DNA of 39,711 nucleotides, taken from positions 1 to 39,711 of the forward strand of contig JAAYCB010000351.1 in NCBI GenBank assembly GCA_012744395.1. The letters are read 5' to 3'. Within the stretch, counting starts at the first letter, position 1, and each line of letters starts with the position of its first letter. This DNA is from Pirellulaceae bacterium. Lineage in GTDB: Bacteria > Planctomycetota > Planctomycetia > Pirellulales > Thermoguttaceae. Below are positions 17,052 through 23,101 of this stretch, piece by piece. The notes under the pieces were generated by a model. The model saw only the letters and a list, made by a program, of their open reading frames with translations, searched no databases and had not been told where the DNA came from. The position numbers were made by a program, and so were the translations under genes.

Positions 17052-18395
17052 ATGACCACCAACCGGATGGATCGTCGCCAGTTCTTGCGAGTTGCGGCAA
17101 CGTGCGCAACGCCAGCCATCATCCCGGCACGGGCCCTCGGCGCTGACGGCAACGTCGCCCCGAGCAACCGGACCACCCTGGGCATGATTGGGCTGGGCCG
17201 CCAGGCGATCGCCTACAACCTGCCGTTCTTCACCAGCCAATCGGATTGCGAGGTGGTTGCATTGTGCGACGCCGATCGATGGCGGCTGGAAGTGACCGAG
17301 GAACGAACCGCATCGTATTACGGCGAGAAGAAGAACCGTTGTCCCAAGGTTCCGAAGTGTCCGCGTTACGCCGATTTCCGCGAGGTGCTCGGGCGGAAAG
17401 ACATTGACGCGGTCATGATCAGCACGCCCGACCATTGGCACGTGCCGATGTCGGTCGCGGCGGTAAAAGCGGGCAAGGACGTTTCCTGCGAGAAGCCGCT
17501 GACGCGGAGCATCGCCGAAGGCCGTCTGCTGAGTGATCTGGTCGCCAGACACAAGACAATCTTTCGCACGGACAGCGAGTTTCGTTCGATCAAGCAGTTT
17601 CACCGGGCGGTGGAGTTGGTGCGTAACGGGCGGATCGGCAAGTTGCACACGATCCGCACCACGGTGCCGATAGGCAGTTCCACCTCGCCGCCGTTTGTGA
17701 AGATGCCGGTGCCCGAAGAGCTCGACTACGATTTTTGGCTGGGACCGGCGCCGGTGAAGCCATACACCGAACAGCGAGTGCATCAGATTCAGGGCTACGA
17801 ACGGCCTGGCTGGATGAATATCCGCGATTACTGCGACGGCATGATCCTCAACTGGACTACGCATCTGAATGACATCGCCCAGTGGGGCAACAACACCGAC
17901 CGCACCGGACCCGTGGCCGTAGAAGGCCGCGGCAAGTATCCGCCGCCCGGCAGCCTCTGGGACGTATGTTACGAGTTTGAGTTCATCTGCACCTACGCCG
18001 ACGGAGTACGATTGATCTGCAAGACGGATACGAGTGCCCCCCACACGCGATTTGAGGGCGAAGCGGGATGGATTCAGGCCAATTTTGGCGGCGTGCCGCT
18101 GGAAGCCGAACCCAGGGGGCTGTTGGACTCGAAGATCGGCCCTGACGAGCAGCACTTCCCGTTGATGCACGAGAAACGCGACTTCCTCGACGCGGTGCAA
18201 ACACGCGGCCAGACGCTGGAAGACGCCGAAGTCGGACATCGCACCACCTCATTGGGACACTTGGGCCAGATTGCCATTCAGTTGGGCCGCCCCTTGAAGT
18301 GGGACCCGCAGAAGGAGCACTTCCCCGGTGACGATGAGGCAAACAGGCTGTTGTCGCTGCCGCCCGGCCGCAGCCCATGGTCGCTGGAAGCATAG
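17052..18395 (+). CDS. Tat-exported Gfo/Idh/MocA family oxidoreductase
   Basis: The 447-residue protein starts with a twin-arginine signal, DRRQFLRVAATCATPAIIPA (residues 7-26), so it is likely folded with NAD(P) before export. The Rossmann motif GMIGLGRQA, STPDHWHVPMSVAAVKAGKD (in outline) and CEKPLTRS with the catalytic Lys are all present, as is the C-terminal GMILNWTTHLNDIAQW helix. Secreted members of this type with an adjacent TIM barrel have been linked to glycoside cleavage through 3-keto intermediates in Bacteroides (family knowledge; not shown here). AAGGAG lies eight bases upstream. The next gene follows after 30 bases. The pair is bracketed by transposase remnants and by eye uses more A/T-ending codons than neighbours. 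Confidence 0.92.
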   Translation: MTTNRMDRRQFLRVAATCATPAIIPARALGADGNVAPSNRTTLGMIGLGRQAIAYNLPFFTSQSDCEVVALCDADRWRLEVTEERTASYYGEKKNRCPKVPKCPRYADFREVLGRKDIDAVMISTPDHWHVPMSVAAVKAGKDVSCEKPLTRSIAEGRLLSDLVARHKTIFRTDSEFRSIKQFHRAVELVRNGRIGKLHTIRTTVPIGSSTSPPFVKMPVPEELDYDFWLGPAPVKPYTEQRVHQIQGYERPGWMNIRDYCDGMILNWTTHLNDIAQWGNNTDRTGPVAVEGRGKYPPPGSLWDVCYEFEFICTYADGVRLICKTDTSAPHTRFEGEAGWIQANFGGVPLEAEPRGLLDSKIGPDEQHFPLMHEKRDFLDAVQTRGQTLEDAEVGHRTTSLGHLGQIAIQLGRPLKWDPQKEHFPGDDEANRLLSLPPGRSPWSLEA

Positions 18396-18425: not shown

Positions 18426-19319
18426 ATGCGTTTGTCCATGATTCGCGATTTTTTGGCCGGTCTTGCGTTGGGCGTGCTCGCGGCTGTATCCGCATGGGCT
18501 GCGGACGATGCCGAATCAGGACTGGCCAGTCCGTTCTTCGCCTTCGATAACGGCACGGGCCGCGAGCAGCATGTTCCGTTGGAAGAACAGGCGAAAATGC
18601 TCAAGGAGCTTGGTTATTCCGGCATCGGCTATACCGGTACCCAACAGATCCCAGAAATGCTCAAGGCGCTCGATGCCCAAGGGCTGAAGATGTTTAGCGT
18701 CTATGTCGGCGCCGACGTCGACCGGGGGAAATCGCCGTACGACCCCGGCCTCAAAACGGCCATCCGACAACTGAAGGGCCGCGACACGTTGATTTGGGTC
18801 TACATTCTGGGCGGAAGACCGTCCTCGACGGAATCGGACGACCGGGCCGTAACGATTCTGCGCGAGATTGCCGACATGGCTGAGGGGGCGGGCCTGAGGG
18901 TTGCGCTCTATCCGCACGCCGGCTTCTACGTCGCTCGAGTGGAAGACTCGGTGCGGCTGGCAAAGAAGGTAGACCGCAAAAACGTTGGCGCCACGTTCAA
19001 CTTATGCCACTTCTTGAAGGTCGACAACGAGGAGAACCTTGAGCGACGGTTGGCCGAGGCAATGCCCTATCTGTTTGCTGTCAGCATCAATGGGGCCGAC
19101 GGCGGTGACACGAACCGGATGCCTTGGAACCGGCTGATCCAGACACTCGATCGAGGCAGTTTCGACGTCGGCCGCGTGTTGCGGATTCTCAAGCGATTGG
19201 GCTACATGGGGCCGATCGGGCTGCAATGTTACGCGATCCGCGGCGACAGTCGCGAGAACCTGAAACACTCAATGGAAGGGTGGCGACAACTTTGCGGCCA
19301 AATAGGCGGCCAGCGGTAA
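18426..19319 (+). CDS. Exported xylose isomerase-like TIM barrel protein
   Basis: The 297-residue protein has a signal peptide (IRDFLAGLALGVLAAVSAWA) followed by an AP-endonuclease-2/xylose-isomerase-like barrel. Family signs are LKELGYSGIGYTG, LRVALYPHAGF, GATFNLCHFL with a likely metal-binding His, and GYMGPIGLQCYAI at the end. Proteins of this fold include epimerases, isomerases and, in secreted planctomycete/Bacteroidetes pairs with Gfo/Idh/MocA proteins, possible 3-keto-glycoside lyases. AGAGGAG lies six bases before the ATG. It is co-directional with and 30 bases after the Tat oxidoreductase, so the two probably form one pathway unit. The RAYT remnant starts right after the stop codon. 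Confidence 0.9.
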   Translation: MRLSMIRDFLAGLALGVLAAVSAWAADDAESGLASPFFAFDNGTGREQHVPLEEQAKMLKELGYSGIGYTGTQQIPEMLKALDAQGLKMFSVYVGADVDRGKSPYDPGLKTAIRQLKGRDTLIWVYILGGRPSSTESDDRAVTILREIADMAEGAGLRVALYPHAGFYVARVEDSVRLAKKVDRKNVGATFNLCHFLKVDNEENLERRLAEAMPYLFAVSINGADGGDTNRMPWNRLIQTLDRGSFDVGRVLRILKRLGYMGPIGLQCYAIRGDSRENLKHSMEGWRQLCGQIGGQR

Positions 19320-19655: not shown

Positions 19656-20154
19656 TAACTGCGTCTGCTCCCTTTCCGTTCTTCCCTTTTCCGTCAATAC
19701 CTGCTGTTTTGCGCCGTCAGCCTGGATTTCCTCAACCTGGCAAACCGACTTCTGCTGCCGGACGCTATGGCTGCCACGCATCTTCCCTAATTCGGTTGAC
19801 TGTGATGGCCATTGCCTCAGGGTGGCCTGGCTGGCGTCAGGCGGGCGGGTCTGCACGCTGGCCGCTGGCTGCGGGTTGGAATCGACCTTGTCGCCAGGCG
19901 CGCTTCCGGCTATCCTCCCCCGACCGTTGATCGGTTCCGCATGAACCCTTTTCCCCGATCGATTGCGGTATGCCGTCCCGAGAGCGGCCGAATCCTGGCG
20001 GCGGCAAGTGCGCTGGCGCAGCTCGTGCCGCTAGCCATTGCCTGAGCCCGGAATCCTCCGGCTAGGGGAGACAGCGGCAGCCGGGATTGCCCCTGCACGG
20101 TGATCGATTGGACGGTTCGGATTCAATTGGAGTGAACGCGCCGCGAGGATGATC
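19656..20154. other. Intergenic region of about 500 bases without a recognised gene
   Basis: No ORF here has a recognisable product or ribosome binding site. A short stretch at about 20069-20095 (GACAGCGGCAGCCGGGATTG) resembles part of the RAYT remnants (GACAGCGGGGCAACCGGGAC), so this may be further transposase debris. GAGGA at 20145-20149 serves the next gene. Confidence 0.4.
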
Positions 20155-20805
20155 ATGGACGATCGGTTCGCTTTTCGACCCGCGAGAGTATTCCTGGCCG
20201 CAACAGTCCTCGCCGTGTTGGCGCTTGCCGGTTGCACGAGCGGATTGGCCACGGCGATGTGGCTGCTCAAGGGGCCGAACATCCCCGCGGAATACAAATG
20301 CCTGAAAGACCAGAACGTTGCCGTCGTCTGCCGCGGGACCGACATCTACAATTTTCCCACGGTTCCCAAGGAACTCTCCCAGAAGGTGGCGAGTCTTCTG
20401 AAAAGCAACGTCCCCAAGATCAGAATGGTCAACCAGCGCGAGGTTGACCAGTGGATGGACAACAACGATTGGGATGAGTATCTCGAAGTCGGCCGCGCAC
20501 TGAAGGCCGACCGGGTGCTGGGAATCGAAGTCGAGCAATTCAGCATCTATCAAGGCCAGACGCTCTACCAGGGCAAGGCGAATATCGTGATGAAGGTCTA
20601 CGACTGCCAGACCGGCGACCTGCTGGTGGACAAACCGCTGCCGCAATCGATCCATCCGCCGAACTCGGCGAAATCCACGTCCGACGTGCAGGAAATCGCC
20701 TTCCGGCGCGAGTTCGTCGGCGTGCTGGCCGACCAGATCGCCAGGCACTTCTACGCTCACGATCCTCGAGCGTATTTCGCCGCCGACGCCGCCTATATGC
20801 ACTAG
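20155..20805 (+). CDS. Hypothetical lipoprotein
   Basis: The 216-residue protein has an N-terminal signal with a lipobox (VLALAGC, Cys near residue 27), so it should be lipid-anchored. The mature part is alpha/beta with VAVVCRGTDIYNFPTVPKEL, VLGIEVEQFSIYQGQTLYQG and MKVYDCQTGDLLVDKP. It resembles uncharacterised planctomycete lipoproteins that may bind at the envelope, but I do not recognise a named domain. ATG 20155 is preferred over ATG 20149 because GAGGA (20145-20149) would overlap the earlier start. It stands alone: about 500 bases of apparently empty DNA upstream and a repeat-bearing gap downstream. Confidence 0.8.
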   Translation: MDDRFAFRPARVFLAATVLAVLALAGCTSGLATAMWLLKGPNIPAEYKCLKDQNVAVVCRGTDIYNFPTVPKELSQKVASLLKSNVPKIRMVNQREVDQWMDNNDWDEYLEVGRALKADRVLGIEVEQFSIYQGQTLYQGKANIVMKVYDCQTGDLLVDKPLPQSIHPPNSAKSTSDVQEIAFRREFVGVLADQIARHFYAHDPRAYFAADAAYMH

Positions 20806-21183: not shown

Positions 21184-22344
21184 ATGCCCTCGAATGCTGC
21201 TCAGACGATGGTTTTCGGTCCCTTCCCTCCTCGGCGCTGGCCGTGGTTAGCCGCCGGCTGGCTTGCGGGCCTGCTGGCGTGGTTTCTCGTCGGCTTGCCC
21301 CATCTTGAGGCGGGAGCCAATCCCCAGCAGCCATCGGCGCGGCGTTCCCCGGCGAGGGCGGCCGCACCGGCCCAAGCGCAACCGGCGGGCCGGCAGCCGC
21401 AGGCCAAGCCAGCCGCCAAACCGCAGGCAAAGCCCCAGCCGCCAGCGCCCAGCCCCGCCCGCCCGCCGGCTGGGCGGAAGGCCGAGAAGATTCCTCCGCC
21501 GGAAGAGATTTCCGGCGGCGACCTGATCACCCGCGACGGCGTCACCCTCTGTGCAACCTTCTATCCCGGTACCAAGGGGAAGGAGTCGGTGCCTGTTCTC
21601 CTTCTGCACAACTGGAAATCGAGCCGGCGGGAGTTTGCCACGCTGGCCCCACAATTGCAGCAGTTGGGGTGCGCGGTCCTCGTGCCGGACCTGAGGGGCC
21701 ACGGAGAGAGCACGCGAAAGATCGAGGTCTACCGGGGGAAGCCCCGTGAAGTGAAGCTCGATGCGGCGAAATTCCGGGGAACCGAGTTTGCCGAAATCGC
21801 CGCGCTCGATATGGCCGCCCTGCGCAGTTTTCTTCTGAACAAGAACAATTCAGAAGAACTGAACCTCAACAAGCTGGTGATCGTCGGCTCGGAAATGGGC
21901 GCGGCCGTTGCCATGGTCTGGTCGGCTTACGATTGGTCGCTGCCGAACTACGAACATGCGGGCATCAAGCAGAGCCAGGACGTGAAGGCCCTGGTGTTGA
22001 TTTCTCCGCGATGGTCCCACCCCGGGTTGGACACGGCCGCTGTCTTGAACGCCAAGGGCCTCTCCCCCGTCCGCGATCGTCTCTCGGCGATGATCCTCGT
22101 CGGCCAGGGCGTTTCGGAGAAGGCTCGCGATGCGGAACGGATCGAGGGGAAGATGGTCTTGAACCGGCCTCAGCCCGAGGCGCTAATCGACCGCACCGTC
22201 TTGCGGCTGGCCTTCGATACCACGCTCCAGGCGGAAAAACTGCTCAATCTGCCGCCCCTGAATCTTTCCGCGATGATCTGCCGCTTCATCGAAGAGCGCG
22301 TGATCAAGGGGGAGACGAATGCGGGCTGGATGAAGCACCAGTAG
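21184..22344 (+). CDS. Membrane-anchored alpha/beta hydrolase-fold protein with Glu at the nucleophile position
   Basis: The 386-residue protein has one N-terminal membrane segment (about 22-38, WLAAGWLAGLLAWFLVGL), a Pro/Ala/Lys/Gln-rich linker (about 46-104), then an alpha/beta hydrolase domain. VPVLLLHNWKSSRREF fits the oxyanion-hole strand and VLVPDLRGHGEST is typical. The nucleophile elbow, normally G-x-S-x-G, reads VGSEMG: Gly235-Ser236-Glu237-Met238-Gly239, so Glu stands where Ser (or Asp/Cys) should be. It is therefore a likely pseudoenzyme or uses unusual chemistry. ATG 21184 is chosen; an in-frame TTG at 21160 would add eight residues. It precedes the ferredoxin gene by 16 bases, so the two are probably co-transcribed. 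Confidence 0.85.
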   Translation: MPSNAAQTMVFGPFPPRRWPWLAAGWLAGLLAWFLVGLPHLEAGANPQQPSARRSPARAAAPAQAQPAGRQPQAKPAAKPQAKPQPPAPSPARPPAGRKAEKIPPPEEISGGDLITRDGVTLCATFYPGTKGKESVPVLLLHNWKSSRREFATLAPQLQQLGCAVLVPDLRGHGESTRKIEVYRGKPREVKLDAAKFRGTEFAEIAALDMAALRSFLLNKNNSEELNLNKLVIVGSEMGAAVAMVWSAYDWSLPNYEHAGIKQSQDVKALVLISPRWSHPGLDTAAVLNAKGLSPVRDRLSAMILVGQGVSEKARDAERIEGKMVLNRPQPEALIDRTVLRLAFDTTLQAEKLLNLPPLNLSAMICRFIEERVIKGETNAGWMKHQ

Positions 22345-22360: not shown

Positions 22361-23101
22361 ATGCCGGTGCGGAAGATTATCCAGATCGACGAAGAGAAAT
22401 GCGACGGTTGCGGCCAGTGCGTCCTTTCCTGCGCCGAGGGGGCGATCCGCATCGTCGGCGGCAAGGCGAAGCTGGTCTCCGACGTCTATTGCGACGGGCT
22501 CGGCGTCTGCCTGGGCCACTGCCCCCGGGGGGCAATCACGATCATCGAGCGCGACGCCGCGGATTTCGACGAGGCCGCCGCCCGACAGCTTGGGGCATCT
22601 CAGCCGGCGCCCCTCTGCGACCATTCCGGCGGCGGCTGTCCCGGCGCGGCGCCGCGTGATCTCCGGCTCAACGTGCTGGCCCAGCCGGCATCCGAACCGG
22701 TCGCGCCGGGCGGTGCGTCCTTACCGCATTCCGCACTCCGCAACTGGCCGATCCAGCTTGCCCTGCTGCCCGAATCGGCAGCCTTCCTTCAAGGAGCCGA
22801 CCTGCTACTCGCGGCCCAATGCGCGGCGTTTGCCATGGCCGATTTCCATGAGCGGCTGCTGATGGAGAAGACGGTGGCCATCGCCTGCCCAAAACTCGAC
22901 AACGCCCAGCGGCATCTCGAGAAGCTCGCGGCGATTCTCCGCCAGTCCGACGTGAAGAGCCTCTCGGTCGCGCGGATGGAAGTCCCCTGCTGCACGGGCC
23001 TCGTGCGACTCGCCCGGGCGGCGATCGAAGTCTCCGGCAAGGAGATGCCCTTGCGGGAGATTGTCGTCTCGACGCGGGGGGAAGTGAAAGCGGAAAGCTG
23101 A
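22361..23101 (+). CDS. Ferredoxin-like 4Fe-4S protein with C-terminal Cys-containing domain
   Basis: The 246-residue protein begins with a ferredoxin domain. The first cluster motif is complete (Cys14, 17, 20, 24; CDGCGQCVLSC). The second, YCDGLGVCLGHCP, has Leu47 where the second Cys would be, leaving Cys44, 50 and 54; this three-Cys form recurs in the family and could hold a 3Fe-4S or a non-standard cluster. The C-terminal half has further cysteines in IACPKLDN and VPCCTGL, suggesting a redox or metal role beyond electron shuttling. It follows the alpha/beta hydrolase by 16 bases. The last codons (EVKAES) and the TGA lie inside a heptanucleotide repeat array. Confidence 0.88.
   Translation: MPVRKIIQIDEEKCDGCGQCVLSCAEGAIRIVGGKAKLVSDVYCDGLGVCLGHCPRGAITIIERDAADFDEAAARQLGASQPAPLCDHSGGGCPGAAPRDLRLNVLAQPASEPVAPGGASLPHSALRNWPIQLALLPESAAFLQGADLLLAAQCAAFAMADFHERLLMEKTVAIACPKLDNAQRHLEKLAAILRQSDVKSLSVARMEVPCCTGLVRLARAAIEVSGKEMPLREIVVSTRGEVKAES

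Follow-up and report, generated by a model that had tools for sequence, protein, structure and literature searches.

The alpha/beta-hydrolase-fold protein studied here is encoded in the window, i.e. the whole stretch of 39,711 nucleotides analysed (contig C292 of a 6.17 Mb genome), and probably acts in the cell envelope as a binding protein without catalytic activity (Table 1). As judged from alignments with relatives in the same phylum, its gene is descended from a serine hydrolase that lost its catalytic triad. The loss of the triad can be read directly from the sequences, and from it we infer a loss of activity, a binding function and a candidate partner. Against Pfam the window protein matches Abhydrolase_1 (E 5.5e-10), and the members of the class alignment (A1) match Hydrolase_4 in 30/30 and Abhydrolase_1 in 27/30 cases. 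Among named relatives, planctomycete MAGs (L031, L032) come closest to the window. An AlphaFold model computed from a two-sequence alignment with L031 had a mean pLDDT of 34.4, too low for use.

Table 1. Positions in the window of the hydrolase-fold gene, its parts and the neighbouring genes discussed in the text.
Feature	Position	Strand	Basis or remark
Triad-less alpha/beta-hydrolase-fold protein, 386 aa	21184..22344	+	ATG at 21184, stop ends at 22344; Pfam, homologues
Putative N-terminal export signal / hydrophobic segment, residues ~1-45	21184..21318	+	read from sequence
Pro/Ala/Gln-rich linker	21319..21483	+	variable among homologues, as far as shown
DLRGHGES motif, residues 169-176	21688..21711	+	Arg171 in 131/131 class rows
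Glu237 codon GAA, nucleophile elbow	21892..21894	+	alignments (MAFFT, hhalign)
Elbow helix and class-specific insert, residues ~238-272, including D250-W251 and D266	21895..21999	+	alignment
Gln349 codon CAG, opposite His of HGT in triad-bearing relatives	22228..22230	+	alignments
Two-cluster ferredoxin-like protein	22361..23101	+	adjacent only in the window's genus; outside the conserved unit
Lipoprotein, lipobox LAGC (by eye)	20149..20805	+	recurrent Pirellulales neighbour

An earlier note on this DNA had pointed to a glutamate in place of the usual serine at the nucleophile elbow, next to an intact DLRGHGES element. Both are present: Glu237 lies in the elbow VGSEMG, within KLVIVGSEMGAAVA, and the same VGSEMG is found in the nearest full-length relative, which is 63% identical (L002/L031). 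Homologues were collected throughout the class Planctomycetia, where 177 loci with a profile match were reduced to 133 after removal of identical cores and to 131 after a 200-aa limit, with one row per genome. The elbow residue was Glu in 47, Gly in 45, Asp in 28, Lys, Pro and Gln in 2 each, and Ser, His, Asn, Arg and Cys in 1 each of these rows. No elbow Ser had been seen among the 30 first homologues, and in the full set serine is absent from 130/131 rows; the sole row that has it (L098) carries Gln at the position of the catalytic histidine. Four rows of family f16 (L068, L110, L111, L112) contain an extra residue that renders the elbow alignment ambiguous, and their D/N differences were not used. 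Since the sister lineage also has Glu and the class as a whole is non-Ser, a sequence error or a recent mutation was ruled out as the origin of Glu237.

At the position of the C-terminal histidine, where the window protein has Gln349, the class rows show Gln in 55, Arg in 18, His in 11 and other residues in the rest, and Ser and His occur together in 0/131 rows. The elbow is Gly in 12/12 rows of family f21, which holds 9 of the 11 His rows; most families no longer have this His. At the position of the acid after strand beta-7 there is Val310 in the window and Asp in the sister and in 82/131 rows, in a column that is less securely aligned. Compared with a catalytic serine hydrolase, the window protein has Glu237 at the nucleophile position of G-x-Nu-x-G, where Ser or, in some families, Cys or Asp is needed (Ser 1, Cys 1 and Asp 28 of 131 in the class), and Gln349 in place of the catalytic His. 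The gene itself is widespread: it was found in 51/60 relatives, the window's own genome included, and at 1e-20 in 226/297 class genomes, mostly as a single copy with up to 8 candidates per genome scored, while 71/297 were without a match at this threshold.

The origin of the family was traced by a phylum-wide search, in which 31/149 genomes had a match at 1e-12, 23 of them outside the class. The outside-class set comprised 20 loci from 19 genomes (G341, G403, G460 and G466 were left out). Among the 19 aligned rows, 11 have both Ser (GAS-x-G) and His (HGT), 1 combines Asp with His, and in the other 7 the His is missing and the elbow is Gly or Asp. The twentieth locus (L221), kept out of the alignment because of a long frame beginning with a peptidase-like stretch, was read singly and has Ser and His (12/20 with L221); this frame (L221:2-2380), in which the peptidase-like stretch (by eye) lies ahead of an intact GAS-x-G/HGT hydrolase domain, is a possible fusion. 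L214, with an elbow Asp and a retained His (VGADIG, HGTKMFG), may be an enzyme with an Asp nucleophile among sisters that have Ser. Elbow Gly without His was observed in L209, L218, L220 (family f55), L219, L223 and L224, where the triad may have been lost in parallel or at an earlier time.

The 11 triad-bearing sequences (A4) are of Hydrolase_4 / Abhydrolase_1 type in 11/11 cases and were compared with the class alignment by hhalign (probability 100, E 1.1e-41, 228 columns). GSEMG was paired with GASIG and LQAEKLL with LHGTRMF, so that Glu237 aligns with Ser and Gln349 with His, and in a joint MAFFT alignment Glu237 was likewise opposite the Ser of GAS-x-G. A profile search of the PDB with A1 gave 5bov as best match (1.9e-07, query 30-103) and covered chiefly the N-terminal half, so the elbow is not firmly placed by it. 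With A4, 7qjm was found at 7e-17 with GAS-x-G over G-x-S-x-G, and a second stretch, weak alone (i-Evalue 43), put HGT over SHF; the Ser and His of these 7qjm motifs are presumably its catalytic residues.

In a quick tree of 67 class rows, drawn at random within groups, and the 19 outside rows, all 67 class rows are separated from the others by a single branch (SH-aLRT 99). A branch likewise sets apart each of the families f21, f22, f23, f24 and f26, and vertical descent therefore fits; the Pirellulales rows are also set apart by a branch, with a support of just 21. When 59 class genomes were searched with A4, the best match was this same gene in 13/13 Pirellulales genomes, of which 3 (the window's included) had 1-2 further, weaker matches. 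Because 11/19 rows elsewhere in the phylum keep Ser and His, we read the class gene as the descendant of a Ser hydrolase, and the Ser appears to have been lost no later than the time at which the class arose. As 8/19 outside rows are also without Ser, and at least 4 Ser/non-Ser changes are required on the tree, the loss may be older than the class, or repeated.

Activity could persist if catalytic residues were located elsewhere in the pocket, e.g. Ser236, His142, His173 or Asp209. The invariance of Arg171 and Asp209 (both identical in 131/131 class rows) and the frequency of His142 (115/131) and His173 (113/131) would agree with such an enzyme. However, Arg171, Asp209 and His173 are each present in 11/11 and His142 in 8/11 of the triad-bearing relatives, and since these share them the four residues look structural. 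Ser236 is without conservation in the class, where residue 236 is Ala in 66, Ser in 19 and Val in 19 of 133 rows. We therefore hold this explanation to be unlikely.

An enzyme that uses the elbow Glu or Asp as nucleophile or general base is more doubtful still. Asp acts as nucleophile in haloalkane dehalogenases and epoxide hydrolases, Glu or Asp is found in 75/131 class rows, and Asp together with His is kept in L214 outside the class and in L154 within it. However, Gly, which is unable to act in this way, occupies the elbow in 45/131 rows including all of f21, and the required His is present in just 11/131. Closely related proteins also differ, with Glu/Gly at 77% and Glu/Asp at 80% identity, and at least 26 elbow changes were counted among the 67 tree rows. 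Because the residue keeps changing, Glu has probably not taken over as nucleophile, and a special role for it is unlikely, Glu being just one among several elbow residues. At the same time Glu, Gly and Asp account for 120/131 elbow residues, so that the elbow is under a constraint which a site with no remaining use could do without. When mapped on the tree, the three residues require 18 changes compared with a shuffle mean of 26.9 and are thus less scattered than shuffled states, and the column entropy is 2.08 bits at the elbow versus 2.83 bits at the former His. Glu237 would then be one of the few residues (Glu, Gly, Asp) that the disused elbow tolerates.

The ferredoxin-like gene begins 16 nt past the hydrolase stop on the same strand, and a membrane redox or sensing role of the two proteins as a pair had been proposed in the earlier note. 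Ferredoxin homologues were detected in 19/60 relatives, 15 of which also have the hydrolase gene. In these 15, mostly draft genomes, the two genes are adjacent in 2, both of one genus that includes the window's own, and on different contigs in 13. In G001, the second genome of that genus, only 52 residues from one end of the adjacent hydrolase gene are present, where the contig ends, and in the closest relative outside the genus (G015) the two contigs that carry the genes separately are 107 and 83 kb long. Moreover, a ferredoxin match at 1e-10 is absent from 36/51 genomes with the hydrolase gene. The second cluster motif, which had been regarded as unusual, is normal for this family: of 17 homologue rows, CDGLGxC[LI]GxCP was found in 14/14 of those listed over this stretch (all but L187, L188 and L195). 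In 4/15 loci (L187, L190, L194, L196) the ferredoxin has another neighbour, as a YgbA_NO-like gene (nitrous oxide-stimulated promoter family) lies just upstream of it; the Pfam match was checked at one of the four loci (E 5e-41). This neighbourhood suggests a role of the CDGLGxCLGxCP ferredoxin in nitrosative or anaerobic stress. A partnership as a conserved unit was ruled out by the restriction of the adjacency to the window's genus, no support was found for a membrane redox role, and a functional pair is highly improbable; most likely the adjacency is a coincidence.

The earlier proposal that the domain has been kept for some purpose is borne out. The gene is, by its substitution pattern, under purifying selection, with dN/dS of 0.039-0.208 in 17 pairs above 70% identity (the highest value is a pN/pS, dS being saturated) and 0.22 between the window and its sister. 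Several residues are characteristic of the class when compared with the 11 triad-bearing relatives. Asn227 is present in 127/131 class rows and is Asp in 9/11 relatives; Trp251 is present in 102/131 and opposite a gap in 11/11; Trp382 is present in 121/131 and is matched by a gap in 7/11 and by Trp in 2/11. Gly264, Asp266, Gly307 and Arg385 are further such features, Trp382 and Arg385 being less sure because the C-termini of the relatives were trimmed for alignment. The class has also gained an insert next to the former active site, and the distance from the elbow to LVLISP has a median of 31 residues in the class (range 21-74) versus 19-20 in the 11 triad-bearing sequences. A decaying relic, as the stepwise loss of catalytic residues might indicate, is scarcely credible given dN/dS values of 0.04-0.21, an internal stop in a single row (G244) among the matches listed, and the conservation of these class-specific residues.

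Concerning the location of the protein, a simple hydropathy rule identified a hydrophobic segment following a basic residue upstream of the domain in 121/131 class rows; among the 10 rows that failed, 7 of the 8 listed resemble signal peptides by eye. In the homologues this segment often ends in a signal-peptidase-like AxA/AQ (by eye), and in the window protein a cleavage after LEAGA is possible. The N-terminal hydrophobic segment noted earlier is thus present, while its interpretation as a membrane anchor is not established because of these AxA/AQ ends. The long Pro/Ala linker, described as retained, differs among homologues, as far as shown.

The gene context was compared around the hydrolase gene in 41 Pirellulales loci, many on short contigs, where Pirellulales denotes rows classed as own, same family or same order, and gene names were checked on one representative each. 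Recurrent frames before the gene were a tilS-like PP-loop gene (7, opposite strand), rny (8), ymdB (9), DUF2752 (13) and the lipoprotein (25); past it, convergent secDF (13), yajC (12) and tgt (8) recurred. Among these context genes, the lipoprotein alone was recognised beside the hydrolase gene in the window. Farther upstream, positions 17052-18395 encode a Gfo/Idh-type oxidoreductase (by eye), and positions 18426-19319, which follow, encode a TIM-barrel protein resembling xylose isomerase (PF01261, 3.5e-23). Upstream of the hydrolase gene in 8 loci (cluster 18, e.g. L063:6875-8929) there is a conserved frame of ~690 aa on the opposite strand, von Willebrand A-like by eye and without a Pfam match; it is overlapped by conserved frames on the other strand, and either may be the gene.

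In 24 of the 25 loci having it, the lipoprotein gene precedes the hydrolase gene in the same orientation at a distance of up to 3.6 kb. In a coordinate comparison that drew on 69 (hydrolase) and 68 (lipoprotein) Pirellulales entries among the matches listed, 38/68 Pirellulales genomes with both genes had it no more than 5 kb upstream and in the same orientation. In the remaining 30/68 it was not so placed; six of these concern the same contig or a few-contig genome, yet with the gene far away or elsewhere. Outside the Pirellulales it was seen at 1/25 loci of 11-14 kb (L143-L167), on the opposite strand. The lipoprotein family occurs in 273/297 class genomes, many of those in f22 giving two matches, and its presence alone therefore says little. 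No Pfam match was obtained for the window lipoprotein. Among the Pfam families listed for its alignment (A2), seven each matched 1/13 members (best E 0.018; FlgT_M 0.069), and weak PDB profile leads were 2iqi (E 0.083) and 5odc (0.81). RecA chains (8.1e-06) were judged spurious, being a sum of ~3-bit repeats.

Taken together, hydrolase ancestry, loss of the triad and continued conservation, the features of non-catalytic hydrolase-fold proteins, were all found at the sequence level, and binding is the function that a lost triad in a conserved gene suggests. The retention of the acid Asp in 82/131 and of His in 11/131 rows, so that part of the triad survives in some, speaks against this reading, as do the constraint on the elbow, the 71/297 class genomes without a match and the 8/19 outside rows without Ser. 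A non-catalytic envelope protein of this kind would leave the cytoplasm via its signal peptide and would bind either a ligand or another protein, with the former pocket or the newly gained insert as the binding site; in the Pirellulales the upstream-encoded lipoprotein would be the first candidate partner. A fuller scenario, which we put forward tentatively and consider rather less likely than not to hold in all its parts, is that an ancient exported serine hydrolase became a widespread envelope receptor or adaptor at or before the origin of the Planctomycetia, that its elbow was kept acidic or Gly, that the Trp insert and the C-terminal Trp/Arg tail form a new binding surface, and that it works with the lipoprotein in the Pirellulales.

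The closest counterparts in sequence are the Planctomycetota Ser hydrolases of A4, which are homologous over nearly the whole domain, share the DLRGHG block and in many cases have an N-terminal signal (by eye) like the window family. They differ in that Ser and His are kept (by selection of the set), the insert is absent in 11/11 and the C-terminal Trp is present in only 2/11. Non-catalytic hydrolase-fold proteins are known mostly from animals and plants; NDRG2, NDRG3, neuroligins, gliotactin and thyroglobulin are animal proteins. The GID1 gibberellin receptors combine the hydrolase fold with a changed triad and bind a ligand, and they are an analogy only, as GID1 is a soluble plant protein that retains the Ser. 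The window family, in contrast to the NDRG2/NDRG3 group to which it is likened by description, is bacterial, exported and present throughout one class. According to passages of PMC7022630, all triad residues of the hydrolase fold are replaced in NDRG3, the nearest precedent found, which is discussed there with neuroligins, gliotactin and thyroglobulin. In these proteins and NDRG2, as in the window family, non-reactive residues have taken the place of the triad in a protein of hydrolase ancestry, and some of them act by protein interaction (PMC7022630).

Literature searches for a comparable planctomycete or bacterial pseudoenzyme brought up no paper whose title or abstract describes this family. 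In a study of the essential genes of Planctopirus limnophila, 151/748 of these are reported to be of unknown function, and its main text has no word beginning with 'hydrolase' (PMC10632474). The 'hydrolase' label that profile searches assign is probably misleading for this protein. Inside one phylum of bacteria the family can be followed from members with the complete triad to members that have lost it, and the order of triad loss can be examined because f21, without a nucleophile, mostly still has the His. Both this hydrolase-fold protein and the neighbouring lipoprotein family are widespread in the class, whose cell envelope is unusual.
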